From positions 248,001 through 312,000 of the forward strand of contig NC_021184.1 of assembly GCF_000233715.2 (NCBI RefSeq): a stretch of DNA of 64,000 nt. Reading direction: 5' to 3'. The notes beneath the pieces are model-generated. The model ran no database searches and was not told the DNA's origin. It saw only the letters and a list, made by a program, of their open reading frames with translations. Positions 24,407 through 49,020 of the stretch are shown piece by piece. The translations under genes were made by a program, and so were the position numbers. The first letter of the stretch is position 1. Each line of letters opens with the position of its first letter. Source of the stretch: Desulfoscipio gibsoniae DSM 7213. Its GTDB lineage: Bacteria; Bacillota; Desulfotomaculia; Desulfotomaculales; Desulfallaceae.

Positions 24407-25987
24407 ATGAGCTTTATGCCGGGCATTAAGCCCATTGCAGTAAAAACTATAATCTTTCTGGCACTTTCGTCACTGCTGTTTGTTTTTTTCTCAATTGTAA
24501 ATCCTTGTTTTGCAGAGCCTGGCAGCGGCAGCCTCAACAGTAACCTGTCCGAACACATTATCCTCTCGTGGACGGAAGACCCCGGGACTACCCAAACCAT
24601 CACCTGGAGTACAGGGGATGCCACCCGGGACCGGATGCAGTACCAGCCCGCTGCCGGTTTTAGCGGCAGCTTTGATGGTGCCCTGGAAGTGATTGCTGAC
24701 GGATCTGGTTCCAACAATGGACTATTTCACTTTGAAGCGACCATCCGGGGACTGACCCCCGGCACAGGTTACGTCTATCGCATTGGTAAAGAAGGGGCCT
24801 GGAGTGCACCGGCTACCTTCACCACCGCCACAACTGATGATGAGTTTTCCTTTATTTACATGGGCGATGTCCAGGAAGGCTATGAGTTCTGGGGGGAAAT
24901 GCTTGAAAAGGTTTATGAAGATCACCCTGGCATCAAATTCGGACTGCTGGGTGGGGATTTAGTCAATTACGCCGGCAGTATCGAGGAATGGCAGCAGTTT
25001 TTCGCCGCTGCCTCGCCTGTTTTCAGCCAAATCCCGTTGATGCCGGCTGCGGGCAACCACGATGATACTGAGCTTTTCTGGAATTACTTTGCCCTGCCTC
25101 GGAACGGGCCCGGGGGATACGAAGAAAAATTTTATTCCTTTGACTACGGAAACTGCCATATTGCTGTGCTGAACAGCAATTATCTGGGTGCTTCCGGGAT
25201 CGGCGATTACGAAAAGATAACTAAATGGTTGCAAAACGATCTAAACAATAGTAAGCAGCAGTGGAAACTGCTGGTCCTTCATCACCCGCCCTACCCGGTG
25301 GTCCACGATTGGCGTGCAGATCACCTGCAGGCAAATTGGGTTCCGCTTTTTGAACAATGCGGGGTGGATATGGTCCTGGTAGGACACCAGCACGTCTACA
25401 TGCGGACCAAGCCCCTGCGGGACGGCGCGATCCAGGCCGATGGAGAGGGTATTGTCTATATCATGGGCAATGCAGGGACAAAGTATTATGGTCCCGGACC
25501 TGATTACGACTATATTGCGAAACAAATAGCCTACGTTAGTAACTATCAAGTAATCAACATTAACGGGGAAAACCTTACCCTGATCGCTAAAGATGCCGGT
25601 GGGCAAGTGATTGACAGTTGCGTAATAGCTAAGCAGTCTGTTGCCGTTAAGCCCGTATATACAATCACCCCGGTGGCTGATGCTGCTTATAAAATCGAGG
25701 CCGCCAACGATGGGATAACAACTATGTCCGTAAACAGCGGCGTTTCCGGGATGAAGTATTTTAATGTGCAGTTGGCTCCCATAAAAGCACATACAGGGTT
25801 GGAGACAGTAGTATTTACGCATCTAAGAGACGGTACCCAACTGGGACTCAATGCAACCAAAGCTGACTTTGACGTGGTAGACATTGCTCAGGCCGGCTTC
25901 AACGTCCAGCCGGGTGATATGGTCAAGGTTTATATGGTTGATGACCTGACCAGTATGGTTAAGCAGAACCCGATTTTTTTACAATAG
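24407..25987 (+). CDS. exported metallophosphoesterase with FN3-like N-terminus
   Basis: A 526-residue secreted protein. A Sec signal peptide ends near residue 36 (NPCFA-EPGS). An FN3-like purple acid phosphatase N-terminal domain (about 40-145) precedes a calcineurin-type phosphoesterase domain with MGDVQ near 153, GGDLVN near 184, GNHDD near 221, HHPPYP near 291 and VGHQH near 327, which supply the two-metal site. The last ~110 residues form a domain shared with the C-terminus of the 1550-residue protein at 33893-38545, both ending in LQ. It is the first gene after the tandem Moco riboswitches. Whether its substrate is a phosphorylated cofactor such as molybdopterin is speculation. The ATG at 24407 follows gggaggg; an in-frame ATG at 24383 has no site. 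Confidence 0.85.
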   Translation: MSFMPGIKPIAVKTIIFLALSSLLFVFFSIVNPCFAEPGSGSLNSNLSEHIILSWTEDPGTTQTITWSTGDATRDRMQYQPAAGFSGSFDGALEVIADGSGSNNGLFHFEATIRGLTPGTGYVYRIGKEGAWSAPATFTTATTDDEFSFIYMGDVQEGYEFWGEMLEKVYEDHPGIKFGLLGGDLVNYAGSIEEWQQFFAAASPVFSQIPLMPAAGNHDDTELFWNYFALPRNGPGGYEEKFYSFDYGNCHIAVLNSNYLGASGIGDYEKITKWLQNDLNNSKQQWKLLVLHHPPYPVVHDWRADHLQANWVPLFEQCGVDMVLVGHQHVYMRTKPLRDGAIQADGEGIVYIMGNAGTKYYGPGPDYDYIAKQIAYVSNYQVININGENLTLIAKDAGGQVIDSCVIAKQSVAVKPVYTITPVADAAYKIEAANDGITTMSVNSGVSGMKYFNVQLAPIKAHTGLETVVFTHLRDGTQLGLNATKADFDVVDIAQAGFNVQPGDMVKVYMVDDLTSMVKQNPIFLQ

Positions 25988-26048
25988 CACCCCTGCAGTG
26001 CGCTTATACGCAACAAGGATGACAAAGCAGGGGAAGGGGGATAGCAAA

Positions 26049-29000
26049 GTGCGTGAACACAAAATATTTAGTAAATTCAGCATTTTATTCCTGGCCGGAC
26101 TATTTTTGCTGGCTGGTGTATTTGGCCTGTTGCCCACAGCTGCCCATGCCGTTGGGGACTCGATTACCATTACGGGGAACGGAGTGTATAATCCCGGTGT
26201 GACCTTTACCCAAGATGAACTTCAGGACGATAATATATTACCGCAACATACGGTACTTTACAGTACCATCAACACCTGGCCCACCAAGAGCTGGTGCAGG
26301 GGAGAAGGCGTTAAGGTTAGTGATCTCCTGGCAGCGGCGGGGGGGCTTAAGCCCGAGGCTGTGCTGATTAAATTTACTTCCCGCGATGGCTTTACCACCA
26401 CTTTTACGATACAGGAATTTATACATGACCCGCGTTATTGTTTCCCGCATTTCATGGACAATGGAATCGCCGGGCATATTCCCGGTGATCCGGCGGAGGC
26501 GGTAGCTGTAGAGCCCATCATTGCTCACAGGAGTTGCTCCGCTCAAAATATTGCTGATGTGATGAACGACGATAATATGAGCCAAGGGGACGCCAACCAC
26601 CTGTTGTTTGGGCAGCGGGCAGTCACCGAGCAGACGAATGCCATATTTGTCAAATATGTAACCACCATTGAAGTGCTTACTACCGAGCCGGATCAATGGG
26701 ATGAACCGACGGCTAATCCGGATAGCGGCACAGTATCCGCGGGAACCATGGTCGAGCTGCAGGGCCCTTTCAATGACCTGGATAAAGTTCATTATACCGT
26801 CGATGGCAGTACCCCGACCGTGAGTAGCCCGATGTATAACTGGATTGCCAGCCGGTGGTCATCACGTGAAGACTTTGATGAAGTTAACCACCCAATCGAA
26901 ATTACAGGGGATACTGCCATTAAAGCGTTGGTTATCGGTCCCGGCAAGGAAAACAGCGATATTGTTACCTTCAACTACCGGGTGCAAACTGTAGCCATCA
27001 CGGGCGTAGGTATCGCAGAGGGCGACCAGCAGCTGGAGGTAAACCAGACGGTTCAGGTTACTGCCGAAGTGCAGCCGGAGAATGCCACGGATAAGGGCGT
27101 CACCTGGTCCACCAGTGACCAGTCAGTGGCCACCGTCAATGAGACCGGGTTAGTCACCGCGATTGCTGCAGGAACAGCCACTATCACTGTTACCACTAAC
27201 GATGGTGAGTTCAGCGACACCATCACCGTGACCGTCGCCAACGAACCGACGGGGTCCGATCTGGTCATCAACAAAGCTAACCCTGCCAAAGCTACCAAGA
27301 ACAAAGCATACGCCGGGCATACCTTTACGGTAACGGGCGGAGTAGAGCCTTACAGCTTTGCTGTTACTGATGGAGCATTGCCGAAAGGGACGAGCCTAAA
27401 CGGTGCAGCGTTAGAAGGAACGCCGACTGAGAGCGGTACATTTGTCTTTATCATAACCGTAACCGACAATGCAGACCCGGCAAAGACAGTCAACCATGAA
27501 TTTACCCTGGTGGTAGAGGCCGACGGAGTACCCTATGATGAGGAAGTTGTATTAACCATTAAAGGCGACGGGGTGACGAACCCCGGGGAATTTACCCTTT
27601 CCCAGCTTGAGGGAATGCAGCAGCACCAATATGTATACAGTGTGATTAACACCTGGCCCTCTAAAAAATGGTACGTAGGCAAAGGGGTTAAAGTGAAAGA
27701 CTTGCTCGATGAGGCGGGGGTGAAAGGAAACGCCCGGCAAATACGATTTAGTTCCAGCGATGGCTACTACATGACCCTGACGGTGCAGGAATTATTAGAA
27801 GAAAGGCGTTATCGTTTTCCAAACTTCATGGCCGGCGGGGATGACGGCGGGCATATTCCCGGTTCCTCATCAGGCGCGGTAGAGGTGGAGTCCATTCTCG
27901 CCTTGGTTGGTGCCGATACAGATAACCCATCCTATATGAACGACGCCAATGCCCTCCAGTTGATGGTGGGGCAGCGGGCAGTTACCGAGCAAACCGACCC
28001 CATGTTTGTAAAATATGTAAATGAAGTTGAGGTACTCACCTCTGCACCGGGAAAATGGGACAAACCAAAGGCCGATCCCGATGGTGGTACAGTGCCCGCA
28101 GGTACGCTGGTTGAACTGAAAAACAACAATATGGATATGGATAAGATTTATTACACTGTGGACGACAGTACCCCGACCATGGATAGTACCATGTATAATC
28201 CGGTTGCCAAGCGGTGGTGGCCGGCACGCGGTAAGGAAGTGGTGGCTGAGATCAACCACCCGTTAGAACTGACCAAAGACACTACCATCAAGGCCGTCAC
28301 CATTGGTCCCGGCAGGTCAAACAGCGACATAGTAACCTTTACCTATAAGATTACCGAAGCCACGGCTGCTGCAACCGACGCAATCATACCCGGTAAAGGC
28401 GGCGCTGTAAGCCTTGGTAGTGAGGTTACCATTGAGATACCGGCTAATGCGCTGACCGGAACAAACCCGGTGGAGGTAATGATAGAGCGCGTGACCACGC
28501 CTCCCACCGCACCCGCAGGTTTCAAGATTCTTGGAAGTGTGTTTGAATTCAGCGTGGATGGCAATAACAGCTACAGCTTTGCCAAGGAAGTTATCATCAA
28601 ACTCAGCTTCGACCCCGAAGCGGTCACTGCCGGCGAGACCCTGGCCGTCCACTGCTACGACAAAACCGCGCAGCAGTGGGTCAACATTGGCGGCGAGGTA
28701 TCCGGCGATACCGTAACCGTGCAAGTGAACCACTGTACCAAGTTTGCTGTAATGGTATTTGATAAACTTGCAGCCGCTGAAACAATCACACCCGGTAAAG
28801 GCGGCATCGTAAGTCTTGAGGATGAAGCTGCCATGGAGATACCGGCCAATGCATTGGCGGGAACCAGACCGGTGGAAATAACGATAGAGCGCGTGACCAT
28901 GCCTCCAACTGCGCTCGCAGGCTTTAAAATTCTTGGTAATGTATACGAGTTCAGCGTAGATGGTAAGGCCAGTTATAACTTTGAAAAGGAAGTGACCATC

Positions 29001-29714
29001 AAACTCGGCTTTGATCCCGAGGTTATTAACGTGGACGAGATTCCTTCCATCCACTACTATGACGAAACTGAGAAGAAGTGGGTCAATATCGGCGGCGAGG
29101 TATCCGGCAATACTGTAATCGTGCAGGTGGACCATTTTACTAAATTCGCTGTAATGGTTGCAATGCAAATGAAGGGGCAAGAGCAAATATTAACCGACAT
29201 CGTCGGACACTGGGCGGAAGATAGCATCAAAGAACTGGTTGCCCTCGGGGCTGTAGCCGGTTACCCGGATGGCAGCTTCAAACCCAACAATAAAATTACC
29301 CGGGCCGAATTTGCTTCGATTCTGGTGAAAGCATTAAAACTGGAGCTCCAAAGAGGTAAAGTCTTTGCCGATACTACCGGGCATTGGGCGAAAGATACCA
29401 TAGCCACCGCAACATACCACGGTATCGTCAGCGGCTATGGCGCTGATATGTTTGGGCCGAACGATGTTATCACTCGTGAGCAGATGGCGGCCATGGTTGT
29501 TAATGTGGCCAAACTGACTCCCGTGACGGAAGGGATGTCGTTTAAAGACAGCAGCAGTATCTCGGACTGGGCCGGAACAGCCGTTGCCACGGCGATACAG
29601 CATGGGATTATCAACGGGTATCCCGATAACACCGTCCGATCCCGGGGCAACGCAACCAGGGCCGAGGCAGCGGAGGTTATTGTAAATGCGTTGCACAGTA
29701 TATTAAATGATTAA
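26049..29714 (+). CDS. SLH-anchored surface protein with two MPT-fold-like domains
   Basis: A 1221-residue cell-surface protein. A signal peptide ends near residue 35 (AAHA). Domains in order: MPT-fold-like (about 36-218), chitobiase C-terminal-like beta domain (VHYTVDGSTPT, 219-312), Big_2 Ig-like (313-399), putative Ig (400-494), a second MPT-fold-like domain (498-673), a second chitobiase-like domain (673-767), two ZU5-like repeats each starting near PGKGG (778-903 and 911-1037) and three SLH repeats (1049-1217; GHWAED, GHWAKD) for attachment to the cell wall. The MPT-like domains resemble the sulfite oxidase family fold but replace the expected cysteine region with YSTINTWPTK or YSVINTWPSK. 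GTG start after a ggggaaggggg site. Confidence 0.8.
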   Translation: MREHKIFSKFSILFLAGLFLLAGVFGLLPTAAHAVGDSITITGNGVYNPGVTFTQDELQDDNILPQHTVLYSTINTWPTKSWCRGEGVKVSDLLAAAGGLKPEAVLIKFTSRDGFTTTFTIQEFIHDPRYCFPHFMDNGIAGHIPGDPAEAVAVEPIIAHRSCSAQNIADVMNDDNMSQGDANHLLFGQRAVTEQTNAIFVKYVTTIEVLTTEPDQWDEPTANPDSGTVSAGTMVELQGPFNDLDKVHYTVDGSTPTVSSPMYNWIASRWSSREDFDEVNHPIEITGDTAIKALVIGPGKENSDIVTFNYRVQTVAITGVGIAEGDQQLEVNQTVQVTAEVQPENATDKGVTWSTSDQSVATVNETGLVTAIAAGTATITVTTNDGEFSDTITVTVANEPTGSDLVINKANPAKATKNKAYAGHTFTVTGGVEPYSFAVTDGALPKGTSLNGAALEGTPTESGTFVFIITVTDNADPAKTVNHEFTLVVEADGVPYDEEVVLTIKGDGVTNPGEFTLSQLEGMQQHQYVYSVINTWPSKKWYVGKGVKVKDLLDEAGVKGNARQIRFSSSDGYYMTLTVQELLEERRYRFPNFMAGGDDGGHIPGSSSGAVEVESILALVGADTDNPSYMNDANALQLMVGQRAVTEQTDPMFVKYVNEVEVLTSAPGKWDKPKADPDGGTVPAGTLVELKNNNMDMDKIYYTVDDSTPTMDSTMYNPVAKRWWPARGKEVVAEINHPLELTKDTTIKAVTIGPGRSNSDIVTFTYKITEATAAATDAIIPGKGGAVSLGSEVTIEIPANALTGTNPVEVMIERVTTPPTAPAGFKILGSVFEFSVDGNNSYSFAKEVIIKLSFDPEAVTAGETLAVHCYDKTAQQWVNIGGEVSGDTVTVQVNHCTKFAVMVFDKLAAAETITPGKGGIVSLEDEAAMEIPANALAGTRPVEITIERVTMPPTALAGFKILGNVYEFSVDGKASYNFEKEVTIKLGFDPEVINVDEIPSIHYYDETEKKWVNIGGEVSGNTVIVQVDHFTKFAVMVAMQMKGQEQILTDIVGHWAEDSIKELVALGAVAGYPDGSFKPNNKITRAEFASILVKALKLELQRGKVFADTTGHWAKDTIATATYHGIVSGYGADMFGPNDVITREQMAAMVVNVAKLTPVTEGMSFKDSSSISDWAGTAVATAIQHGIINGYPDNTVRSRGNATRAEAAEVIVNALHSILND

Positions 29715-29763
29715 GTAGTTATATCAGGCTAGCAGCGAGGGGGGAAGTGCGATTACGCAGACT

Positions 29764-31407
29764 GTGAAGCATAATTGGCTTCATCAACTCTCAATATCCA
29801 TACTGGGCTTACTGGCTCTTGTTGGCTTGCTTAACCTGATGGTGCCCGCAGTAGCTTTTGGCAGCCAGACGGAATCGCTGGAAATTACCGGAGAAGGGGT
29901 CGTGAATCCAGTAACCTTAACTATGGCCGAATTGGAGAACACGCCGATGTATGAACATGTATATAGCACGTTAAATACTTGGCCTACTAAAAGGTGGTAC
30001 ACGGGAAAAGGGGTTAAACTTAGAGATCTACTTGCTTTAGCGGGGATCAAGGAAGAGGCCACATTGGTTCGTTTTGTCTCAAGCGATGGCTATGATGTTA
30101 CCCTTACGGTTAAGGAGTTGTTAAAGGATAGACGTTACTGTTTCCCGCGTTTTAAAGAAAACCACCCCCATGACGGGACTATCCCGGGTCCTACTGATGG
30201 TGCGATGGAGGTGGAGCCCATTTTGGCCTTGCTCAGTGCCGAGGATAGTGACGATCCCGCTGATATGAACGACAGGGATTCACTGCTGCTGATATTTGGG
30301 CAGCGGGCCATAACTGAACAGACAAACAATTTATTTCTAAAATATGTAAGTAAAATTGAGGTGCTCACCACGGCTCCGGAAAAATGGGATCATCCGAAGG
30401 CTAATATAGAAAGTGGAGCTACTGTACCCGTGGGCACCATGCTAAAACTCAGCAATAAGGGCAACAACGAGGACAAGATTTATTACACAACGGACGGCAG
30501 TACGCCGACGGTGAATAGCCCGATGTTTAACTGGAGCGCCAGTCGCTGGTGGCCTTTACGGGGAGATGATTTAGACAGTGTTAATTCCCCCATCGAAATT
30601 ACTGAGGACACTGTCATCAAAGCCGTCACCATTGGACCCGGAAGGGAAGACAGCGATGTGGTCACCTTTACCTTCAAGGCTGATGCCACGGGCCTGGCGG
30701 TCGACCCCACGCAGGTGCCGGGTGGGCCGCCAACCGGAGTTACCCTCGACCAAAACAAAATCAATCTCAATATTGGTGGTACTTTCCAGCTAGCAGCAAA
30801 CATAGCCCCGTTTAATGCCACTAACCAAAATGTAACCTGGAGTTCTAGTGATACCCGTGTGGCTACAGTGGATAATTACGGTCTGGTAACGGTGGTCGGC
30901 CCGGGTACGGCGACGGTTACCGTAAAAACAGTGGATGGTAGCCATACGGCCACTTGCGTTGTAAATGGTCCGGATGGGGGCGATAGCAGTCAGGATGCGG
31001 CACCTGTCATTAGTTATCAAGGGAATCAGCTCCCGGAGGTTCCTGTGGAACCGTTGCTGCTGGAAGCCGAACGTCCGGAACCGGTGGAAGAGATCGAGCC
31101 AGATGTCGATTCAACGGCTTCCGGCGAGGTACCGGATACTCCCGCCGAGCTCCCGGTGCCGGAAGATAGAGGGCGCTACCTGACGGAAAGAAGTGATTTG
31201 GCCGTTGCTTCAACAATTACCCCCGGCGTCTCCTCGGAACATCAGGGCAGCCAGACCTGGCAGGTGTTCGAAATGTCAACCGAATCTGTACCTTTTCCGT
31301 TGCAGAATAAGAAAAATAAGCTGAATATTTACACAGCTGCGCTATTGCTGATTATCTTTCTGTCAGGGGCCGCCAAAAGATACGCAGATTATATAAAGGA
31401 GCTATAA
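29764..31407 (+). CDS. membrane-anchored surface protein with MPT-fold-like and Big_2 domains
   Basis: A 547-residue exported protein. A signal segment (about 10-35) precedes one MPT-fold-like domain (about 38-205, with YSTLNTWPTKRWYTGKGVKL), a chitobiase-like domain (IYYTTDGSTPT near 240), a Big_2 domain (about 320-400), an acidic Pro/Glu-rich linker and a C-terminal hydrophobic helix (ALLLIIFLSGA) followed by KRYADYIKEL, which fixes it in the membrane. It directly precedes the ExbB-like gene with a ten-base gap. The start is uncertain: GTG at 29764 lies 17 bases from the gggggaag site, while an in-frame ATT at 29752 is better spaced. Confidence 0.78.
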   Translation: MKHNWLHQLSISILGLLALVGLLNLMVPAVAFGSQTESLEITGEGVVNPVTLTMAELENTPMYEHVYSTLNTWPTKRWYTGKGVKLRDLLALAGIKEEATLVRFVSSDGYDVTLTVKELLKDRRYCFPRFKENHPHDGTIPGPTDGAMEVEPILALLSAEDSDDPADMNDRDSLLLIFGQRAITEQTNNLFLKYVSKIEVLTTAPEKWDHPKANIESGATVPVGTMLKLSNKGNNEDKIYYTTDGSTPTVNSPMFNWSASRWWPLRGDDLDSVNSPIEITEDTVIKAVTIGPGREDSDVVTFTFKADATGLAVDPTQVPGGPPTGVTLDQNKINLNIGGTFQLAANIAPFNATNQNVTWSSSDTRVATVDNYGLVTVVGPGTATVTVKTVDGSHTATCVVNGPDGGDSSQDAAPVISYQGNQLPEVPVEPLLLEAERPEPVEEIEPDVDSTASGEVPDTPAELPVPEDRGRYLTERSDLAVASTITPGVSSEHQGSQTWQVFEMSTESVPFPLQNKKNKLNIYTAALLLIIFLSGAAKRYADYIKEL

Positions 31408-31417
31408 AAGAAATAAA

Positions 31418-32098
31418 ATGACCGCAACTATTTTGGAACCCTTAAAGGATACGATGAACATCATTTCATCCGGTTTATTGATGCCCACCATTGCCGTTCT
31501 GCTGCTCTTGTTAGCTTTGTCTGTGCTCGAGTTGGGTGGTGTGCTGGTGGAAGCCTTTATGGAACGGCGTAAGATGAATGTCAATGTACCCGACCTGGTG
31601 GGTACTTTTCAGGGGAAAGATGCCGGGGAGATCATGAACGAGATTGAGCACAGCCGGCTGTTTCGACGCCAGAAAACTGCTCTTGGCGAAATGATCAAGC
31701 ATAAAAGCTTGCCCACTGTTTCCCGGCAGGCCTTGGCCCGCCGGCTGCTGGCCGGCGAGGAACTGCATTATGCCCGGATTACCAACAGGACCGATCTGGT
31801 GGCCCGCCTGGGACCTATGTTGGGATTGATGGCCACGCTGATTCCATTGGGGCCGGGCATGATCGCCCTGGGTCAGGGCGATACCAAAACCCTCGCCGAT
31901 TCGCTGCTGACGGCCTTTGACGCCACGGTTACCGGGCTGGCCGCCGCCGGCATCGCCTTTGCCATCTCCCGGCTCAGAAAAAGGTGGTATGAGGATTATG
32001 TAAGCTCCCTGGAAGCCATAATGGAAAGTTTGCTGGAGGTGTTTGCCCGTGAACAGCGGATTAAGGAGCAGGAGGCACCGGACGGACGAAGAGGTTAA
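31418..32098 (+). CDS. MotA/TolQ/ExbB proton channel family protein
   Basis: A 226-residue membrane protein. A first TM helix (about 18-42, IAVLLLLLALSVLELGG) is followed by a cytoplasmic stretch and two helices in the region RLGPMLGLMATLIPLGPGMIAL (about 128-150) and AFDATVTGLAAAGIAFAI (about 168-186), the conserved order of ExbB/TolQ/MotA. Such proteins form a proton-driven motor with an ExbD/TolR/MotB partner. The partner here is the overlapping DUF2149 gene. It lies within a block of surface proteins, suggesting that ion flow is used to act on something outside the membrane. Confidence 0.85.
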   Translation: MTATILEPLKDTMNIISSGLLMPTIAVLLLLLALSVLELGGVLVEAFMERRKMNVNVPDLVGTFQGKDAGEIMNEIEHSRLFRRQKTALGEMIKHKSLPTVSRQALARRLLAGEELHYARITNRTDLVARLGPMLGLMATLIPLGPGMIALGQGDTKTLADSLLTAFDATVTGLAAAGIAFAISRLRKRWYEDYVSSLEAIMESLLEVFAREQRIKEQEAPDGRRG

Positions 32099-38545: not shown

Positions 38546-38646
38546 TACTTTAGCCGAAGCATTTACGAGCAACCACTCCAACAATGGAAAGTTGTTCAGC
38601 CTTTTGAACAATGCCAAGGTGAATTAACTTTAAAGGAGTGACCAAA

Positions 38647-40900: not shown

Positions 40901-42502
40901 TTGAATAAAAAGAGGCTTTACCTGGGTTTATGCATAGTGTTGATTATGCTGACTTTTGTTTTTACCCGATTTTACGCCGGAGATAGCGCAGCCGGTATAC
41001 TGGCTGATCTTTGTGATGAAAAGGTAACGGTAGAGGAAATAACCAGTGAGGTTATACATGGTTACATTGAGGAAAATTTCCCGGCGGTACAGCAAATTTA
41101 TCAAATCCAGGACGATGGGCAGAATCAAATCGGGCATGGATTCATTGTTAAAACAGCAGGTTATAACGGGCCAATCACAATTGCGGTGGTGGTTGACGGC
41201 CGGACTAATCAAATGACAGGTATTAAAGTGCTGGATCATGTGGAAACCCCTGATTATGCTGAGTATCTTTCAGAACGGTGGTTTACAGATCGTTTTAAAG
41301 GAAAAAGCTTGAAGGAATACTTAAATTTAGTGGTGCTTGATCCGGAAAAACCCGAGGATATTGTGCAAATCACCGGGGCTACCATAAGCAGTCAGGCGGT
41401 GGTCAATGGTGTAAACTCAGCTATTGGTGCCCACAACTTTTTAAATAATGGCCTGAGGATGGCCGCAGTGCCGGCTGTGGTGGATAAACTGATTGCCCGG
41501 GATGAAAACAGCTTCACTGTCCACTGGGGAACCGAGGAATTCATTAGGTTTACCGTGGATGAGCTGAAAAAATACCCCACCGTTAAAGTATCCACTGTGC
41601 TGATTAAAACCACCGGCACCGAAGAGGATATTATGGCTGAAGGACCATTGCTAAATGATGTGTTAGAGAGGCAAGGTATCCATTTGGGTGACTATCAAGG
41701 GATAGGGGTCACCGGCCGGGATGGTTATTATGTACTGATGCCCAAGGAACTACTGGACAAACGCCAGGTAATTTTGGCCTATCGAGTGAACAACCAGGAT
41801 ATTATTAAAGAAGATAAGCCCGTACGCGTGGTAGTTCCTGATGAGATGGGTGTTTACTGGGTCAGAATGGTTTCAAACATTGACTTATATGCTGATATCC
41901 CATCCAAGGACATTAAATCGGTTAAAATTTTTGACCCCTTAGTCAGGGATATTGAACCTTATATGTATGAATACTATGGCAGCAAGGACAAGGCTATAGA
42001 AATCGGCAAGATACTGGCTAAATTCGAGCATGTCAACCCCGAAGGTTTTTTCACCATGGTATCATCTGACGGCCTGGCCAAGAACGAGGTGATCAACATG
42101 GTCAGACAGCGCTATTACATCAAGGTATCCGGGAATGACGCGCCGATGAATATTGCACCGAACTTCAAATTAGGAATGAACGTCAAATTTATGGCTTATT
42201 TTTCCACCACTTCGGATGCTGTTATTTTCCCCCGGGAAATGCAAAAGATAACCGGTTTATCTGAATTGGGTACTCATAAGGGTATGATATTGGAAAAAGT
42301 TTTGGAAGGTGTAGGTGTTATAACCCCCCGGGAAAAGCAGTTTGAACTGCTGAACACCGCAGGCCGGTCCATACGGATTCCCGGTCAGGATTTAAGCAAA
42401 TGCATTCTGGTTTATGAGGGGGAAAAGGTTTCAGCCTTCTACCAGGGGGCTGACGGCTTAGTGCAGCTGGCAGACCTGTTAGAAATAAACGAATTAAGCT
42501 AA
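40901..42502 (+). CDS. FMN-binding protein with MPT-fold-like domains
   Basis: A 533-residue membrane-anchored exported protein. One N-terminal helix (YLGLCIVLIMLTFVFTRFY) is followed by an FMN-binding domain (about 40-180) that contains the flavinylation motif TGATISS near residue 155; the serine can accept FMN from ApbE. Two MPT-fold-like domains follow (about 204-336, GRDGYY; and about 365-530, SDGLAKNE). The combination of covalent flavin with MPT-like modules outside the membrane suggests an extracytosolic electron carrier. The next gene, 14 bases downstream, encodes an FeS-FMN membrane protein that could be its electron donor. Confidence 0.82.
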   Translation: MNKKRLYLGLCIVLIMLTFVFTRFYAGDSAAGILADLCDEKVTVEEITSEVIHGYIEENFPAVQQIYQIQDDGQNQIGHGFIVKTAGYNGPITIAVVVDGRTNQMTGIKVLDHVETPDYAEYLSERWFTDRFKGKSLKEYLNLVVLDPEKPEDIVQITGATISSQAVVNGVNSAIGAHNFLNNGLRMAAVPAVVDKLIARDENSFTVHWGTEEFIRFTVDELKKYPTVKVSTVLIKTTGTEEDIMAEGPLLNDVLERQGIHLGDYQGIGVTGRDGYYVLMPKELLDKRQVILAYRVNNQDIIKEDKPVRVVVPDEMGVYWVRMVSNIDLYADIPSKDIKSVKIFDPLVRDIEPYMYEYYGSKDKAIEIGKILAKFEHVNPEGFFTMVSSDGLAKNEVINMVRQRYYIKVSGNDAPMNIAPNFKLGMNVKFMAYFSTTSDAVIFPREMQKITGLSELGTHKGMILEKVLEGVGVITPREKQFELLNTAGRSIRIPGQDLSKCILVYEGEKVSAFYQGADGLVQLADLLEINELS

Positions 42503-42516
42503 CGGGGTGTGGTTAG

Positions 42517-43743
42517 TTGATTAAAAAGCAAAGCAATCTGGAAAATTTACGCCTGACCATCCAGCTGGTAATTTTTTTGGTGGTCTGCCTTTCCTTTGTC
42601 CTTTACAGGCTGTATATTAATGGCCTGATAAACTTTAAGCTGTTCAGCATACACAGTTTAATCCCCTTTGGGGGATTAAATATGATGTATGATTGGGTGA
42701 CAGATAAAAGTTATGTGTTAAATTATACCGCACCGGCATTTCTACTGGCCACAGCTATCATAGTGCTGGCACTGCTGGGAACCCGTTTCTTTTGCGGCTG
42801 GCTATGCCCCTTTGGTGCGTTAAACGATTACATGAGCCTTGTGGGCCAAAGAATCTTTGGGAAAAACTATGAACTGCCCCGGGGATTTGATGTTCGCTTG
42901 CGCTGCGTCAAATATTTGGTGCTATTTTTTATTCTTGCTTCTAAAATATTTATAGGGTCATGTATATTAACCGGCTTTGACCCCTGGGTTGCCTTTGCTA
43001 ATTTACCCGGTTTGCCCGGCACGTTTAAGGAGATACCCTTTGCCTTTCTGGTTTTGTTGATGGTTATTGCCGGGGCTTTTTTTATCAGGCGGTTTTTCTG
43101 CCGTTATCTTTGCCCCCTGGGGGCTTTGCAGGGCATATTGGTGGGCACCGGCCTTGTGCAATTAAAAAGGAGCGGGACAATAACAAACTGCCATAATTGC
43201 AGGAATTGCTCTTTGAAGTGTCCTGTAAATATACAACTTGGCGACCTAAGGATTATAGATACACCGGAATGTATTCATTGCTTAAGATGTGTAGGCGGCA
43301 GTTGCCCCAGGGGGACACTCCCCTTTGAGCTGACCTTTGCAAAAAGGCGGCTGAAAACTTATCCCTATGTGCTGGGGACTCTTGCACTTTTTGGGGGTAT
43401 TTATGCCGGCTTTGGTATCAGCGCTGTCCTGGGTGCTGCTGATACCGCCGGTGTTGGCCTGATGCCCCGGAGTGTCTACCATGATGGGGTTTATTATGGC
43501 ACTGGATTTGGTTTTGCCCCCGGGCTGAAGGTGCAGGTGGAAGTGGCTGACGGTCGGATCATAGAAATTGATGTCGTGGAACACTCTGAAACCAGCGGTT
43601 ATTATGAAGAAGCTTTTATAAAAATAACTGATAAGATTATTAAAAACCAGTTCACCGAAGTGGATGTTGTGTCCGGTGCCACTTATACCAGTAACGGTCT
43701 TATGGAGGCGGTTGAGGATGCATTGGAAAAGGCAAAACCTTAA
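42517..43743 (+). CDS. NapH/NosR-like 4Fe-4S and FMN-binding membrane protein
   Basis: A 408-residue membrane protein with about five or six TM helices. Two CxxxCP motifs of the NapH/NosR type are visible (CGWLCPFGAL near 91, CRYLCPLGAL near 195), followed by a two-cluster ferredoxin part (CHNCRNCSLKCP near 226, CIHCLRCVGGSCP near 251). After another helix, the C-terminus is an FMN-binding domain with SGATYTS near residue 390, a full ApbE flavinylation motif. It can carry electrons across the membrane to an external flavin, as in NosR and related flavin-based systems. The start is TTG at 42517. Confidence 0.87.
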   Translation: MIKKQSNLENLRLTIQLVIFLVVCLSFVLYRLYINGLINFKLFSIHSLIPFGGLNMMYDWVTDKSYVLNYTAPAFLLATAIIVLALLGTRFFCGWLCPFGALNDYMSLVGQRIFGKNYELPRGFDVRLRCVKYLVLFFILASKIFIGSCILTGFDPWVAFANLPGLPGTFKEIPFAFLVLLMVIAGAFFIRRFFCRYLCPLGALQGILVGTGLVQLKRSGTITNCHNCRNCSLKCPVNIQLGDLRIIDTPECIHCLRCVGGSCPRGTLPFELTFAKRRLKTYPYVLGTLALFGGIYAGFGISAVLGAADTAGVGLMPRSVYHDGVYYGTGFGFAPGLKVQVEVADGRIIEIDVVEHSETSGYYEEAFIKITDKIIKNQFTEVDVVSGATYTSNGLMEAVEDALEKAKP

Positions 43744-43780
43744 CTGCATTAAGCCACTTATGTATACAGGTGGTGAAATT

Positions 43781-44341
43781 ATGTTTTGGCAAAAATTTAT
43801 CGAAAAATTCTCTGTGTTGGATTTGATTATCATAGCTATGCTGTCTGCCCTGGGTATTGCCACCAAACCAATTGTTGTGCCCATTACCCACATTATCACC
43901 GGCCCTTTACTAATACCCGGCGGTGTTGTTGCCGGTGGATTTTATATGATGTGGCTGGTACTGGGGGTCGGTTTAACAGGTAAATGCGGAACAGCTACTT
44001 TAATTGGCCTTGTCCAGGCATTAATGGTCTTTGGTACTGGTATTTTCGGCTCCCACGGGGCGATGACGCTGCTAAGTTATACCTTGCCCGGAGTAGCTAT
44101 TGACCTGGCATTGTGGTTTACCAGACACAGGGTTTGCTGTTTGCCCTGTTCCTTTTTGGCAGGTGTGTTGGCTAATATTTGTGGTTCCGGTCTGGTGAAT
44201 ATATTGTATTTTCGCTTGCCCCTGGTGCCTTTAATGCTTGCTCTCACAGTGGCGGCGTTATCCGGCGGGTTAGGCGGTATTATTGCCTATAAAATATTGC
44301 ATCAGTTAAAGAAAACCGGGTTTGGACATAAAACAGCTTAA
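43781..44341 (+). CDS. ECF transporter S component
   Basis: A 186-residue integral membrane protein with about five or six helices and few charged residues (IIIAMLSALGIATKP near residue 15, VGLTGKCGTATLIGLVQAL near 66, GSHGAMTLLSYTLPG near 90). It resembles substrate-binding S components of energy-coupling factor transporters, and the A, A' and T subunits are encoded downstream. The substrate is unknown; linked FMN-binding genes suggest a flavin, linked MobB and Moco riboswitches suggest a pterin, and both are inference. The ATG at 43781 follows aggtggtg; the frame is open upstream across the previous stop. Confidence 0.75.
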   Translation: MFWQKFIEKFSVLDLIIIAMLSALGIATKPIVVPITHIITGPLLIPGGVVAGGFYMMWLVLGVGLTGKCGTATLIGLVQALMVFGTGIFGSHGAMTLLSYTLPGVAIDLALWFTRHRVCCLPCSFLAGVLANICGSGLVNILYFRLPLVPLMLALTVAALSGGLGGIIAYKILHQLKKTGFGHKTA

Positions 44342-44442
44342 GTAGGTAGTGGGGATTGGCAACACGGAAACCAACACGTTTGGCAATCATATAGAATTCT
44401 CTAAGGATTTGTTTGTTCCGCTGGTGGTAGGGGGGTAAGTAA

Positions 44443-44949
44443 ATGATAATCAACAACAGGTTGGTTTATTGGTCAATAGGCTTGTTACTGGTGCTCGTCG
44501 GGGTATTGGCATATCTGAACACGCCAGGTAAACGGGAAAGTGCAAGTTTAACTATTATCAGTAAAGGGCAGCCGGTAAAAACATTTAGCTTGGAAGAAAT
44601 TAAAGAACTGCCGGCGGTTGATAGGGAGGTAACCATCCGCTCATCCAGCGAAGGAATAAAAACCTACGTCTTTACAGGTACGCCTGTACGGGAAATATTA
44701 ACAGGCCTTGATAATGCTATATTAACTGAGGCTAATAAGGTTACCGCCAGGGGCTTGGACACTTACACAGTTGTCTTTAACGGTGAGGAGATACTCTCCA
44801 GTGACCACGTGCTGTTAGTTTATGCCCGGGATGGGATGCCTTTGGGAAGCAAAAGTGAAGGCGGTACAGGGCCGTTCCGCATAATTATTCCAGGCGATCA
44901 GTTCGGCCTGCGGGCTGTAAAATATGTAACTGAATTGGAGGTTAATTGA
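44443..44949 (+). CDS. membrane-anchored MPT-fold-like domain protein
   Basis: A 168-residue protein with an N-terminal membrane anchor (WSIGLLLVLVGVLAYL) and one external MPT-fold-like domain: TIISKGQPVKTFSLEEIKEL near 42, a VFTGTPVREIL segment near 83, YTVVFNGEEI near 110 and a C-terminal LRAVKYVTELEVN strand. It lies in front of the ECF ATPase genes with a one-base overlap, so it may be a partner of the transporter. The 101-base gap before it holds no recognised signal. Confidence 0.75.
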   Translation: MIINNRLVYWSIGLLLVLVGVLAYLNTPGKRESASLTIISKGQPVKTFSLEEIKELPAVDREVTIRSSSEGIKTYVFTGTPVREILTGLDNAILTEANKVTARGLDTYTVVFNGEEILSSDHVLLVYARDGMPLGSKSEGGTGPFRIIIPGDQFGLRAVKYVTELEVN

Positions 44950-45683
44950 TGGCCGCCGCCGCAGTAGTAGTAGTTAATAAGCTCAGTTACTGCTACCAAC
45001 AGGGTGGAAAACAAATTTTAAAAGACTTAAGCTTCACAGTGGAGCAGGGGCAGATTGTGGCTATTTTAGGTTTGAGTGGCTGTGGTAAAAGTACCCTCTG
45101 CCTGTGTTTGGGGGGCATAATCCCCCACTACCTTGGCGGTGCAATAACCGGGCAAGTGCTTATTAACGGCCGGGACACTGTGGATTGTAAAATTGCCCGG
45201 CTGGCCCTGGAGGTGGGTATGGTTTTCCAGGATGCCGATACCCAGTTGTTTTCACCCACTGTGGAAGATGAAATAGCCTTTGCCCCGGAAAATTTGTGTT
45301 TGCCCCCGGAGCGAATCAGGCAGCTGGTGGATGCCGTCATTGGTATGGTGGGAATTAACCATTTGCGTTATGAAAACCCCAATAATTTATCCGGTGGTCA
45401 AAAACATTTGGTAGCTCTGGCTGCGGTTTTGGCCATGGGCCCTTCTATTTTGGTTTTGGATGAAGTGCTGGCCCAGTTAGATGCGGCGGTTAAAAAAAAT
45501 ATTACCGAGTTATTGCTGGAACTGCGCCGGAGGGGTAAAACCATTATCCTTGTGGAACATGACCTGGAAGCGGTAACTATTGCCGACAGGGTGTTGCTGC
45601 TGGAAGGGGGGATGTTGGTAATGGACGGACCATCCTCAATATTGCGGAATAAAGAATTATTAGCCGGACATAAATTGTTGTAA
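44949..45683 (+). CDS. ECF transporter ATP-binding protein A
   Basis: A 244-residue ABC ATPase. Walker A is GLSGCGKSTL near residue 41, the signature LSGGQKHLVAL near 142 and Walker B LVLDEVLAQLD near 165, with EHD as switch histidine region. It is paired with a second ATPase and a T subunit, the normal ECF energising module. The ATG at 44949 follows ggagg by seven bases and overlaps the upstream stop. Confidence 0.87.
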   Translation: MAAAAVVVVNKLSYCYQQGGKQILKDLSFTVEQGQIVAILGLSGCGKSTLCLCLGGIIPHYLGGAITGQVLINGRDTVDCKIARLALEVGMVFQDADTQLFSPTVEDEIAFAPENLCLPPERIRQLVDAVIGMVGINHLRYENPNNLSGGQKHLVALAAVLAMGPSILVLDEVLAQLDAAVKKNITELLLELRRRGKTIILVEHDLEAVTIADRVLLLEGGMLVMDGPSSILRNKELLAGHKLL

Positions 45684-45711
45684 TTTAAGCTTTTACGTGG
45701 GGATGAGAAAT

Positions 45712-46377
45712 ATGGCCTTTATCGAAATGGTTCAGGTGAGCTTTAAATATCCCGGGCAAAAAAAGACCCTTTTGCATGATATTAATTTAAGTATTCGTAA
45801 AGATGGTATCACGGCACTAACGGGACCCAATGGTACAGGTAAGACAACCCTGTCCAAGCTGATGGTGGGCATACTGGTGCCATCAACGGGCTATATCACC
45901 TTAAAGGGGCAAAAGATGTCCGGTATGACACTGGCTCAAATTGGTCGATGGGTGGGATACGTTTTTCAAAACCCGGAAAAACAACTTTTTTGCCCCACTG
46001 TGGCGGAAGAAATTAGTTTTGGCCTGCAAAATCTGGAATTGCCCGGCCATGAGGTGCAACGGTTGGTTAAAGAAAGCCTGGCCTATTTTGAACTGGAACA
46101 CCTGGCCCAAAGTTTCCCTTTGCAATTAAGCCAGGGTGAAAAAAGGCGCCTGGCTATCGCAGCGGTTTTAGCGTTGGAACCCGAGTTACTTGTCCTTGAT
46201 GAACCTACCACAGGGTTAGATGCCTACCGTAAACATTTACTGGGAGAATGCCTGGATAAAATAGTGACATCAGAACGAGGTGTATTCATGATTAGTCATG
46301 ATAACAACTTCATTAAAAAATATGCCTCCCGTATAATCAAACTCGAAAATGGACGGTTAACAGAATATGTGTGTTAG
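45712..46377 (+). CDS. ECF transporter ATP-binding protein A'
   Basis: A 221-residue ABC ATPase. Walker A is GPNGTGKTTL near residue 38, the signature LSQGEKRRLAIA near 137 and Walker B LVLDEPTTGLD near 160. It partners the preceding ATPase. The ATG at 45712 is preferred because of the gggga site; in-frame GTG 45697 and ATG 45703 lie too close to it or in front of it. Its stop overlaps the T subunit start by 11 bases. Confidence 0.85.
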   Translation: MAFIEMVQVSFKYPGQKKTLLHDINLSIRKDGITALTGPNGTGKTTLSKLMVGILVPSTGYITLKGQKMSGMTLAQIGRWVGYVFQNPEKQLFCPTVAEEISFGLQNLELPGHEVQRLVKESLAYFELEHLAQSFPLQLSQGEKRRLAIAAVLALEPELLVLDEPTTGLDAYRKHLLGECLDKIVTSERGVFMISHDNNFIKKYASRIIKLENGRLTEYVC

Positions 46378-47122
46378 ACCGGCGGCAAAAAAAATTAACC
46401 TTGACCCCAGGACTAAAATAATTATTGTTTTGTGCCTTTCTACTTTGGCTGTTTTTTTTAATAGCCCGGTTCCATTAATCATGACATTATCTATTACTTT
46501 ACTCTTGCTGCACATGTTTCAGGTTAACTATATAAGCTTAATTTATAAGTTTCGCCGCTTATTACCGGCGTTAGTAGTACTTTTAATCGTGCAAAGTGTC
46601 TTCACAGGACACGGTCAAGCGCTCATCGCCCTGGGGGATGTGTACATACTTACTACCGGTGGGTTAAGCGCTGCCGGTTGTGTTTTATTAAGAATGCTGA
46701 TATTATTCGGTTCGGCAATGATTATTGCCACCAGTAACTCTAGAGATTATGTACTGGCTCTGGTGCAATTAAAGATTCCATATGAAATAGCCTTTATGGT
46801 TTTGATAGCGCTGCGCTTTTTGCCCATCTTTCTCCAGGAGGCTAAGGATACCATGATTGCCATACAATTGCGGGGCGTTGATATACAAAGGGTACCCTGG
46901 GGAAAAAAGATGAAGGTTTTTACCTACATCTTTTCACCTTTGATAGGCAATGTGTTGATCAAAGCCAACCAGCTTGCTATTTCCATGGAGGCCAGGGGAT
47001 TTAGGGTTTATCCCCGGAGAACATACCTGCGTGTTTTGAAATATAACTTGTGGGATTACATAGTGACCGTATTATCTTTAAGTTTAACCCTTGTCGTATT
47101 AACTCTGACAATAGTTAGGTGA
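46367..47122 (+). CDS. ECF transporter T component
   Basis: A 251-residue membrane protein with about five helices. The cytoplasmic coupling motifs of EcfT are visible (QLRGVDIQ near 163 and MEARGFR near 206), which dock on the two ATPases. It starts inside the A' gene (11-base overlap) and its stop overlaps the next start by four bases, so A-A'-T and the NusG-domain gene form one operon. Confidence 0.85.
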   Translation: MCVRPAAKKINLDPRTKIIIVLCLSTLAVFFNSPVPLIMTLSITLLLLHMFQVNYISLIYKFRRLLPALVVLLIVQSVFTGHGQALIALGDVYILTTGGLSAAGCVLLRMLILFGSAMIIATSNSRDYVLALVQLKIPYEIAFMVLIALRFLPIFLQEAKDTMIAIQLRGVDIQRVPWGKKMKVFTYIFSPLIGNVLIKANQLAISMEARGFRVYPRRTYLRVLKYNLWDYIVTVLSLSLTLVVLTLTIVR

Positions 47123-47508
47123 AACCAATGCAAAACATTAATAAATACATAACTCTCGGTTTATTACTGCTGACCCTCGTCAGCATTGCAGTTGGTTATA
47201 TACTAAACCAACGGGAGCCGGGGGACAATCTGGTACTTGAGATATACCAGGATGGCGACCTGGTCCAACAAATAGACTTGTCTGTCGTACGAAATGATCA
47301 AATTAAGATTACAAGTAAAGACGGCCATTTTAATACGGTGGAAATAAAAGACGGACAGGTCAGGGTTAAAGAAGCCGACTGCCCAAATCAAATTTGCGTA
47401 AAAACAGGTTGGCTGAGCAGGCCCGGTCAAACCTCCTTTTGTGCACCAAACCGGTTAATGGTAACAATAAAAGGCCAAACAAGTCAGGTTGACGCCATTA
47501 CAAATTAA
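47119..47508 (+). CDS. NusG domain II-containing membrane protein
   Basis: A 129-residue protein with an N-terminal helix (YITLGLLLLTLVSIAVGYIL) and an external NusG-domain-II-like beta domain: VLEIYQDGDLVQQIDL near 36 and EADCPNQICVKTGWLS near 91 with two conserved cysteines. In Firmicutes these proteins commonly occur with ApbE, FMN-binding and Gx-transporter genes, which are also in this window at 56-58.4 kb. The biochemical role is not known; the cysteine pair suggests redox chemistry. Confidence 0.83.
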   Translation: MKPMQNINKYITLGLLLLTLVSIAVGYILNQREPGDNLVLEIYQDGDLVQQIDLSVVRNDQIKITSKDGHFNTVEIKDGQVRVKEADCPNQICVKTGWLSRPGQTSFCAPNRLMVTIKGQTSQVDAITN

Positions 47509-47522
47509 AAGAGGTGGCACAT

Positions 47523-48290
47523 TTGAAAGTTTTTTCCGTTTTTGGAGTTTCTCAATCCGGCAAAACCACTACTGTGGAAAGTATTATAGGTGAATTGAGC
47601 AGAAGAGGTTACCGGGTTGGGTCAATAAAAAATATACATTTTCAGGATTTTGCCATTGATGTACCGGGTACAAATACCTGGCGACACAGGTTGGCCGGTG
47701 CGGAAATTGTGGTGGCCAGGGGGTTGACAGAAACAGATGTGCTCATTCCCCGGCAGTTAAGTATAGAAGAGATATTAACTTTTTTTGACCAGGATTATGT
47801 AGTCATCGAGGGTGTATCCAATACGCTGGTGCCTAAAATTCTCTGCGCCAGAAATGAAACTGAGATTGAGGAACGGTTAAATGATCTGGTGCTGGCTATT
47901 TCCGGATGTATATCAAATAGAATATCGGATTACCGAAATATCCCGGTAATTAATGCCCTTTCAGAGGTTGAACGATTGGTTGATTTAATTGAGGCTAAAA
48001 TGAAGGGCTATTTACCACTTATCAATGAGGTTGAGCAATGCCGGGCCTGCGGCAGCAGCTGCCGAAGCCTGGCCTCCCGCATATTGCATAACCAAGCTAA
48101 AGGCTCGGAATGCCTGGTTGGAAATGAAGTCATTGTAAAAGTTGGCAGCCAGGAATTACAAGTGGACTATTTACAGCAAATGAACATCAAAAACTCATTA
48201 AAAAAGATTTTGGTGCAGCTGGACAGCTATGCCGGAGATGATGATATCACTGTTGAAATAAGGAAGAGGAACAATGGAATGGCAGTTTAA
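47523..48290 (+). CDS. mobB: MobB-like molybdopterin-guanine dinucleotide biosynthesis protein with cysteine-rich extension
   Basis: A 255-residue protein. The N-terminal ~165 residues match MobB: a P-loop (GVSQSGKTTTVESI near residue 7) and the KNIHFQDFAIDVPGTNTWRH segment near 38. MobB binds GTP and assists formation or delivery of MGD-type cofactor. The C-terminal ~80 residues are an extension with four cysteines (CRACGSSCRS then SECLVG), which may bind zinc or an FeS cluster. The TTG at 47523 has aagaggtgg eight bases upstream; an in-frame GTG at 47514 lies within that site. It overlaps the next gene by 17 bases. Confidence 0.82.
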   Translation: MKVFSVFGVSQSGKTTTVESIIGELSRRGYRVGSIKNIHFQDFAIDVPGTNTWRHRLAGAEIVVARGLTETDVLIPRQLSIEEILTFFDQDYVVIEGVSNTLVPKILCARNETEIEERLNDLVLAISGCISNRISDYRNIPVINALSEVERLVDLIEAKMKGYLPLINEVEQCRACGSSCRSLASRILHNQAKGSECLVGNEVIVKVGSQELQVDYLQQMNIKNSLKKILVQLDSYAGDDDITVEIRKRNNGMAV

Positions 48291-49020
48291 GTTGGAACAT
48301 TTACTAAAGGTAAAGATTTTAGACTATCATCAAAAATTTAGTTTCCGTAATAACGTTTACCTGGTTGATGCAATAAACCGGTATGGCGTAAAGTTACAAT
48401 ATATAGTTAAGGAATATGTCAAGCTAGGGGCTGGGAATGAGGCTTTTATTATCAACAGCCTGCGCAACCAGGGGTTATTGGTGCCGCGGATTGTTTGGAA
48501 TGACAATAGTTCAATTATTATGGAGTATATTGACGGTATTCTGTTAACAGACCTGTTAACTGATAAAACCATCAGTCACCGGGACTGGATTAATCCTCTT
48601 GCCCGGTGGCTATATCAATTGCATGATACCATGAAGCATGGGAATAAAAATTGTTTATCTAAATTAGACTTAAACCTGCGTAATTTTATTTTCACAGGTG
48701 AGCATTTTTATGGTATTGATTTTGAAGAGGTATGTTTTTATCCTCCGGAAAGGGATTTAGGGGTCCTGTGTGCCTTTATATTAAATAATGATCCCATGTT
48801 TTGCGAATGGAAATTTACAATCTGTTCATTGCTAGTTAAAACCTATCAAAGGATGTATGCCAGTACAGCTAATGATCAGCTGGATTACCAGGCCATACAG
48901 TACTATTTAATAGATGAGTTAAGGGCCGCCGCAGAAAGAAGGGAAAAACAGCGTCCTTACCTGCTTGCAAAGATAGAGGAATTGAGTCGTGAAGCTCAAA
49001 TAATCAGCCATGGGGGTTAA
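48274..49020 (+). CDS. protein kinase-like (APH/RIO fold) protein
   Basis: A 248-residue cytoplasmic protein resembling lipopolysaccharide or aminoglycoside kinase-fold proteins. A beta-strand lysine (IVKEYVKLG near residue 48), a hinge-like IIMEYIDGI near 89, a catalytic-loop-like LDLNLRNFIF near 130 and a DFEE motif near 149 parallel the kinase core, although the usual HxD histidine is replaced by leucine. It overlaps mobB by 17 bases, so the two are co-translated. The substrate is unknown; a link to cofactor metabolism is inferred only from context. Confidence 0.65.
   Translation: MEWQFKLEHLLKVKILDYHQKFSFRNNVYLVDAINRYGVKLQYIVKEYVKLGAGNEAFIINSLRNQGLLVPRIVWNDNSSIIMEYIDGILLTDLLTDKTISHRDWINPLARWLYQLHDTMKHGNKNCLSKLDLNLRNFIFTGEHFYGIDFEEVCFYPPERDLGVLCAFILNNDPMFCEWKFTICSLLVKTYQRMYASTANDQLDYQAIQYYLIDELRAAAERREKQRPYLLAKIEELSREAQIISHGG

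Follow-up and report, generated by a model that had tools for sequence, protein, structure and literature searches.

A gene cluster behind tandem riboswitches in Desulfoscipio gibsoniae

We analyzed a 64-kb stretch (the window; G000:C1:248001-312000) of the single-contig genome of Desulfoscipio gibsoniae DSM 7213 (4,855,529 bp), which contains a gene cluster predicted to serve the salvage of the molybdenum or tungsten cofactor (Moco or Tuco). Two Moco/Tuco riboswitches in tandem precede the cluster, both with covariance-model scores above the RF01055 gathering score of 36, and each is followed by a terminator-like hairpin (Table 1). All genes between 24383 and 49020 lie on the plus strand with short gaps, forming a co-directional run of about 24 kb. 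As annotated by a Pfam scan of the open reading frames (ORFs) of the window, proteins of the molybdopterin (MPT) fold with surface, lipid, or membrane anchors are encoded together with a secreted phosphatase, an energy-coupling factor (ECF) importer, MobB, and a kinase, and the core of this set recurs in distant Firmicutes.

An earlier, sequence-only reading of the stretch had described the riboswitches, a run of exported MPT-fold-like proteins with S-layer homology (SLH), stalk, and transmembrane (TM) anchors, and genes for an ExbB/DUF2149 pair, FMN_bind, NapH-like, ECF, NusG domain II, MobB, and kinase-like proteins. The Pfam scan agrees on all of the protein parts, with SLH and Big_2/Fn3_assoc domains and PF00174 in seven ORFs (those starting at 25998, 29764, 32384, 33893, 40304, 40901, and 44443), and it adds the first gene of the cluster, which encodes a purple-acid-phosphatase-like secreted phosphatase. 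In the whole 4.86-Mb genome, PF00174 matches eight times, each time within this cluster. The ECF set is complete, with an S-component (PF09819), a CbiQ-family T-component, and two ABC_tran ATPases, and is conserved in relatives. According to the Pfam scan, the cluster has no TonB, and the PF01618 protein is paired with DUF2149 where ExbD would stand.

Moco riboswitches are a known class, and metal uptake genes are also under their control (PMC2408646). The RF01055 scan found 17 of them in the D. gibsoniae genome, several as tandem or triple arrays; Regulski 2008 (PMC2408646) gave at least 15, in Syntrophomonas wolfei, as the highest number. The others precede genes for tungstate/molybdate uptake, MoeA, and enzymes resembling AOR, formate dehydrogenase (FDH), and xanthine dehydrogenase (XDH), according to ORFs annotated by eye; for MoeA, PF00384, and AOR, these places agree with profile searches. 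The cluster is therefore part of a Moco regulon that also covers MoeA, the uptake of tungstate or molybdate, and enzymes using Mo or W. Both terminators would halt transcription when Moco is abundant. Just 5' of the window (L068, G000:C1:240122-247983), three further Moco riboswitches lie ahead of two large XDH-like genes.

Table 1 Features of the cluster and the separate flavinylation genes in window coordinates.
Feature	Position	Strand	Basis
Moco/Tuco riboswitch 1 (RF01055)	23784..23900	+	69.5 bits
Terminator-like hairpin (intrinsic type) after riboswitch 1	23935..23964	+	12 pairs + T-run
Moco/Tuco riboswitch 2 (RF01055), in tandem with riboswitch 1	24210..24330	+	66.1 bits
Terminator-like hairpin (intrinsic type) after riboswitch 2	24334..24359	+	9 pairs, T-rich tail
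Secreted purple-acid-phosphatase-like metallophosphatase (Pur_ac_phosph_N, Metallophos); C-terminal domain shared with 1550-aa protein	24383..25987	+	Pfam
SLH-anchored surface protein: MPT-fold (PF00174), second similar copy (by eye), Big_2/Fn3_assoc/He_PIG stalk	25998..29714	+	Pfam
MPT-fold surface protein, Big_2/Fn3_assoc stalk, C-terminal TM	29764..31407	+	Pfam
ExbB/MotA-like protein (PF01618)	31418..32098	+	Pfam
DUF2149 protein (PF09919), partner of ExbB-like protein	32043..32357	+	Pfam; pair conserved in relatives
MPT-fold + Fn3_assoc + Cu_amine_oxidN1 protein	32384..33766	+	Pfam
1550-aa surface protein: Shr-like_HID, MPT-fold domain, Big_2, four Cys/His MPT-fold repeats	33893..38545	+	Pfam, repeat analysis
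Cys/His MPT-fold repeat 1 of 1550-aa protein	35792..36241	+	
Cys/His MPT-fold repeat 2 of 1550-aa protein	36254..36703	+	AlphaFold2 pLDDT 87.9; best PDB matches PruR, YedY
Cys/His MPT-fold repeat 3 of 1550-aa protein	36719..37168	+	
Cys/His MPT-fold repeat 4 of 1550-aa protein	37763..38212	+	
Exported fn3 + Cu_amine_oxidN1 protein	38638..40164	+	Pfam
MPT-fold lipoprotein; lipobox Cys only, domain without conserved Cys	40304..40882	+	Pfam, profile
RnfG-like FMN_bind (TGAT motif), membrane-anchored, fused to MPT-fold region	40901..42502	+	Pfam, model
NapH-like FeS membrane protein (Fer4_5), C-terminal FMN_bind (DVVSGAT motif)	42517..43743	+	Pfam
ECF S-component (PF09819)	43781..44341	+	Pfam; start inferred
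Small TM-anchored MPT-fold protein adjoining ECF genes; candidate delivery protein	44443..44949	+	Pfam, profile
ECF ATPase A (ABC_tran)	44946..45683	+	Pfam
ECF ATPase A' (ABC_tran)	45697..46377	+	Pfam
ECF T-component (CbiQ family)	46367..47122	+	Pfam
NusG domain II protein	47119..47508	+	Pfam
MobB, Walker A intact, Cys-rich C-terminal extension	47514..48290	+	Pfam
APH/Bud32-like kinase, catalytic Asp/Asn and DFE conserved; proposed cofactor kinase	48274..49020	+	Pfam, alignment
Hpre_diP_synt_I (Gx-type) membrane protein adjoining ApbE	56044..56571	-	Pfam
ApbE flavin transferase	56623..57729	-	Pfam; sole ApbE of genome
Cu_amine_oxidN1 + FMN_bind protein adjoining ApbE	57776..58393	-	Pfam

Conservation of the core module

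A profile of the kinase (A5) was searched in 398 genomes of the phylum and matched 33 of them. Besides those of D. gibsoniae and G019, 30 loci with the kinase were recovered, in which some of the missing parts reflect contig ends. MobB was found near the kinase in 23 loci, MPT-fold proteins in 22, both ECF ATPases in 21, the S-component in 20, and the T-component in 19; a Moco riboswitch was present in 15. In the first 20 kinase loci, 10 Moco riboswitches were found in 336 kb, compared with 0.48 expected from the genome-wide density in the same genomes (76 riboswitches in 53.6 Mb; Poisson p about 1e-10). PF01663 phosphodiesterase proteins of about 500 aa are encoded in many of these operons, and metallophosphatase and PF00174 domains are present in a single ORF at L157 and L155. 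MOT1 molybdate transporters, tungstate/molybdate-type binding proteins, and a MoeA gene between MobB and the kinase are among the neighbours of the kinase loci, and we count them in favour of cofactor salvage. The most widely conserved part is thus a module of the ECF S-component, an MPT-fold membrane protein, two ECF ATPases, the T-component, MobB, and an APH-type kinase; it often follows a Moco riboswitch, and MPT-fold capture proteins and secreted phosphatases accompany it. The redox part of the cluster is unlikely to be the core, since variant clusters with ExbB, DUF2149, MPT-fold proteins, and phosphatases have no FMN_bind or NapH-like genes nearby (G033, G074, the second copy in G096, G101, and G102).

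Such variants may have the same function or represent a paralogous uptake route. At L084, L085, L086, L102, L103, L104, and L107, MPT-fold proteins, a phosphatase, and a PF01663-type phosphodiesterase of about 500 aa are encoded with no FMN_bind or NapH-like gene nearby, and most of these loci also have ExbB and DUF2149. Genes resembling TrmO/TsaA, as judged by eye, adjoin two variant clusters (L086:2123-2980 and L100:9563-10375).

Gene order around the fusion of FMN_bind and MPT-fold domains is preserved in relatives. Other genomes of the genus, and one from another family, encode the fusion at full length; in yet another family of the order, its two parts are separate, adjoining genes. Moco riboswitches recur at homologous clusters in other genera and families, some within the cluster, which bears out the cofactor control that the sequence-only reading had proposed. 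In the genus, and likewise in another family, the cluster includes ApbE, which has a Moco riboswitch of its own in front. Among distant Clostridia (Lutispora saccharofermentans and a number of metagenome-assembled genomes), the first half comprises the S-component, a small MPT-fold protein, ECF A, A', and T, MobB, and the kinase, and the second half a Moco riboswitch followed by a large surface protein, an MPT-fold lipoprotein, an FMN_bind/MPT-fold protein, and a NapH-like protein; the stretch examined in Lutispora contains the second half only. Because the neighbourhood recurs in other genera, other families, and distant Clostridia, it is not a chance assembly. MobB of distant Clostridia (L089, L090, and L092) is shorter and does not have the Cys-rich C-terminal extension (CxxCGxxC...C).

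Carriers that lack cofactor synthesis

Among the 31 kinase-bearing genomes outside the genus, 21 have MoaC and ten do not, as judged by Pfam profiles. MoaA and MoeA are also missing from the same ten genomes, so that three independent profiles agree, and every comparison genome in those searches was positive. These genomes represent five families; the assemblies of G211 and G419 each consist of a single contig, with completeness judged at 99% and 97%, respectively. Enzymes of the AOR family, which need a W/Mo-pterin cofactor, are encoded in all ten, and PF00384 enzymes in five. In seven of the ten (G211, G154, G406, G419, G447, G460, and G497), ECF S/A/A'/T, MobB, the kinase, and MPT-fold proteins occur together, and in each of the seven a Moco riboswitch precedes a cluster gene on the same strand; in G211, this is the sole Moco riboswitch of the genome. 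The combination of no Moco synthesis with Moco enzymes and a Moco sensor before an importer is the pattern that a salvage pathway predicts, and some relatives seem to depend on this route, having lost the synthesis genes. Since MoeA is missing as well, the imported species is probably already metal-bearing.

We therefore interpret the cluster as a putative Moco-riboswitch-controlled salvage system for the molybdenum/tungsten-pterin cofactor, with a probability of about 0.75. D. gibsoniae retains MoaA, MoaC, and MoeA, and salvage there would therefore be supplementary rather than essential; its strain Groll is reported to need no vitamins (PMC4148979). In the first sample of 28 genomes (cluster carriers and two genomes of the same genus without a query match), MoaC was present in 28/28, which ruled out salvage as a replacement of synthesis in that sample; MoaC-less carriers appeared only in the phylum-wide kinase sample.

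Two other substrates can be weighed against the same genomes. High-affinity uptake of molybdate, tungstate, or metal complexes, with MPT-fold proteins binding a metal-pterin chelator, would account for the MOT1 and tungstate/molybdate-type transporters that adjoin several clusters, and it is consistent with the presence of metal uptake genes under other Moco riboswitches. ECF transporters for cobalt and nickel exist. However, genomes without MoaA, MoaC, and MoeA that encode AOR-type enzymes could not use bare metal by the known pathway, and the kinase, MobB, and secreted phosphatases suit an organic phosphorylated ligand, so that we regard metal uptake as unlikely. Salvage or sensing of a metal-free pterin, such as cyclic pyranopterin monophosphate (cPMP), dephospho-MPT, or folate-type pterins, is suggested by the closest fold, PruR, which binds small periplasmic pterins. 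The ten carriers without MoeA argue for import of a species already containing metal, the association is with Moco riboswitches and Mo/W genes, and a metal-free substrate appears very improbable; an unrecognised metal-insertion enzyme would rescue it.

The MPT-fold proteins as candidate cofactor binders

Profile and structure comparisons relate the exported proteins to sulfite oxidases and PruR. The lipoprotein profile matches the sulfite dehydrogenase SorA, and that of the small membrane protein matches the Oxidored_molyb structure 7kom, labelled PruR in the fold library. In the model of the FMN_bind/MPT-fold fusion, the MPT-fold regions match sulfite dehydrogenases and PruR 7kom (TMt 0.77), next to an RnfG-like flavin domain, and the AlphaFold2 model of repeat 2 of the 1550-aa protein matches PruR 7kos (E 3e-5) and YedY 1xdq. 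Across 33 copies of these repeats, Cys24 and His29 never vary, and the same motif is retained in distant capture proteins, among them proteins of MoaC-less genomes that are encoded immediately after Moco riboswitches; the profile alignment with sulfite oxidases is too weak to place the repeat Cys at the position of the Mo ligand. The MPT-fold domains of the lipoprotein, the small protein, and the FMN-fused protein have no conserved Cys that could ligate Mo. PruR also lacks this Cys, has a truncated pterin site, and binds pterins in the periplasm (PMC13259868). As most MPT-fold domains of the cluster resemble PruR in lacking a conserved Cys, they are more likely to be binders than Mo enzymes.

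A search by regular expression and by eye found no convincing Tat signal in the exported proteins or in the orthologues of the 1550-aa protein, and loading of these proteins with cofactor in the cytosol thus appears unlikely. The missing signal, together with the invariant Cys and His, could alternatively indicate surface Mo/W enzymes (the Cys/His repeats) that Sec exports in unfolded form and that receive their cofactor outside, with the other proteins serving the loading. Such an arrangement needs an exporter, whereas ECF transporters import, and carriers that cannot make Moco have none to export; we consider it extremely improbable. A cluster of G096 encodes a surface protein (L057:4417-8481) that combines three Shr-like_HID domains with propeller repeats of the RCC1 type.

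The redox part of the cluster

In the sequence-only reading, FeS centres and covalent flavin were suggested to carry electrons out of the cytoplasm to a layer of MPT-like proteins at the surface. The path itself stands: FMN_bind is fused to an MPT-fold region, the SGAT and TGAT motifs are present, and ApbE of relatives is preceded by its own Moco riboswitch. With a Fer4_5 membrane protein, FMN_bind domains with the [S/T]GA[S/T] motif, and ApbE, the parts are those of the NapH-like flavinylation systems, a kind already known (Meheust 2021, PMC8238504). Electron export to the surface as the purpose of the cluster is not supported. FMN_bind domains were found in 6/30 kinase loci and NapH-like proteins in 0/30, whereas the importer, MobB, the kinase, and the capture proteins persist, even in genomes unable to make Moco. 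An extracytosolic redox system that delivers electrons to surface MPT-like enzymes or acceptors and is expressed according to cofactor supply would also leave the importer, kinase, MobB, phosphatases, and carriers without MoaA, MoaC, and MoeA unexplained, and most MPT-fold domains lack the conserved Cys; we judge it quite unlikely. Because a vitamin-type importer, a kinase, and secreted phosphatases fit uptake, we favour cofactor uptake over electron export.

Proposed salvage pathway

In the salvage pathway that we propose, Moco/Tuco or its pterin, released from lysed cells or donor proteins, would be bound by MPT-fold domains anchored to the S-layer, to lipid, or in the membrane. The Cys/His repeats perhaps bind the cofactor via the metal, and the Cys-less domains may bind as PruR binds pterins. 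ECF transporters generally import unphosphorylated vitamins, and we therefore propose that the secreted phosphatases, joined in relatives by nucleotide-pyrophosphatase-type enzymes, strip nucleotide and phosphate. The small MPT-fold protein would then pass the ligand to the S-component; after import, the cytosolic kinase, whose catalytic residues are conserved, would put the phosphate back, and MobB would serve nucleotide attachment. Two lineage-specific helpers can be envisaged. The NapH-like/covalent-flavin chain perhaps reduces the bound cofactor or its ligand bonds for release or keeps the pterin reduced, and the ExbB/DUF2149 motor may energise release at the surface. We think it reasonably probable that this is the first prokaryotic salvage pathway for intact Moco/Tuco, comprising harvest by MPT-fold proteins, trimming by phosphatases, release aided in some lineages by flavin and FeS, ECF import, and reactivation by the kinase, and that some of its carriers are obligate Moco auxotrophs.

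Several points weigh against cofactor salvage. The transporter substrate is assigned as Moco/Tuco from gene context, the predicted ligand, transport, and kinase activities are read from sequence, and the S-component has no solved relative detectable in this way. The roles given to the redox chain and to ExbB/DUF2149 are the weakest parts of the mechanism. Three of the ten genomes without MoaA and MoaC show a partial module only (contig ends, or MobB and the kinase), the ten cases of MoaC loss come from a sample of kinase-bearing genomes, and D. gibsoniae and 27 other searched genomes have MoaC. PruR is thought to be too small for whole Moco (PMC13259868).

Relation to known systems

Riboswitch-controlled ECF uptake of cofactors, surface capture, and flavinylated electron transfer are already known in kind; the novelty lies in the proposed ligand, the capture domains, and the way in which the parts are combined. 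The sequence-only reading knew of no described system with these parts together, and none was found in the open-access literature searched, where we also found no Moco importer, Moco salvage, ECF transporter under Moco control, or MPT-fold proteins for capture. In the regulon survey of Sun et al. 2013, Moco or molybdopterin transporters are missing from the coenzyme-uptake categories.

ECF vitamin transporters with a dedicated cassette (S-component PF09819) share the joint S/A/A'/T genes, control by cofactor riboswitches, and a kinase that could trap the import. The cluster differs from them in that its riboswitch is of the Moco class, the operon encodes a small MPT-fold protein, and phosphatases and capture proteins at the surface are added; the proposed substrate class is not reported for ECF transporters, and sequence comparison of the S-component with solved structures gave no credible match. 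Surface relays are known to scavenge heme (Isd/Shr) and cobalamin (BtuG). The putative relay of the cluster resembles them in surface domains that would pass a cofactor to an importer, including Shr-like_HID, and differs in its other domains and ligand.

PruR, the best structural match of the modelled repeat, shares the extracytosolic location and the sulfite-oxidase fold and lacks the Mo-ligating Cys; of the MPT-fold domains here, most have no conserved Cys, but the four repeats carry one. In Proteobacteria, PruR works with DcpA in signalling, whereas the proteins of the cluster are multi-domain, anchored to the S-layer or membrane, and encoded beside an importer; no dcpA gene was found among the Pfam-scanned window neighbours. 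The sulfite-oxidase/MsrP (YedY) family shares the fold and the PF00174 profile, but the cluster proteins mostly lack the conserved Cys, have no clear Tat signal, and occur in multiple copies on stalks. NapH-like flavinylation systems share the Fer4_5 membrane protein with FMN_bind, an FMN_bind partner, and ApbE (PMC8238504); here, they are tied to MPT-fold capture and an importer under Moco control and are accessory rather than universal. The flavinylation papers make no mention of molybdopterin domains, NusG, or ECF. Unlike ExbB-ExbD-TonB and TolQR transducers, the cluster has DUF2149 in place of ExbD.

External Moco is also used by Caenorhabditis elegans, which takes it from food; in this animal system, the transport mechanism is unknown, and membrane crossing and harvest from donor proteins are unresolved (PMC9793310). 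The passage of pterins across bacterial membranes is likewise unexplained (PMC13259868). If our interpretation is correct, the cluster would provide a genetic handle on Moco transport, and, given a Moco importer and bacteria that are natural Moco auxotrophs, the sharing of cofactor within anaerobic communities could be put to the test. It would also explain large families of exported 'molybdopterin oxidoreductases', which may be binders rather than enzymes.

Genes flanking the cluster

Directly upstream of the cluster (16916-23721) lies a pantothenate, NAD, and biotin block with panC, panD, nadA, a gene for a fumarate-reductase-type FAD protein, nadC, birA, and bioY, and coaX follows the cluster at 49218. 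The ApbE and Gx-type genes that had been placed further downstream were found there, both on the minus strand. Together with the adjoining FMN_bind gene, they form a separate flavinylation mini-cluster (56044-58393) near a group of tRNA genes.

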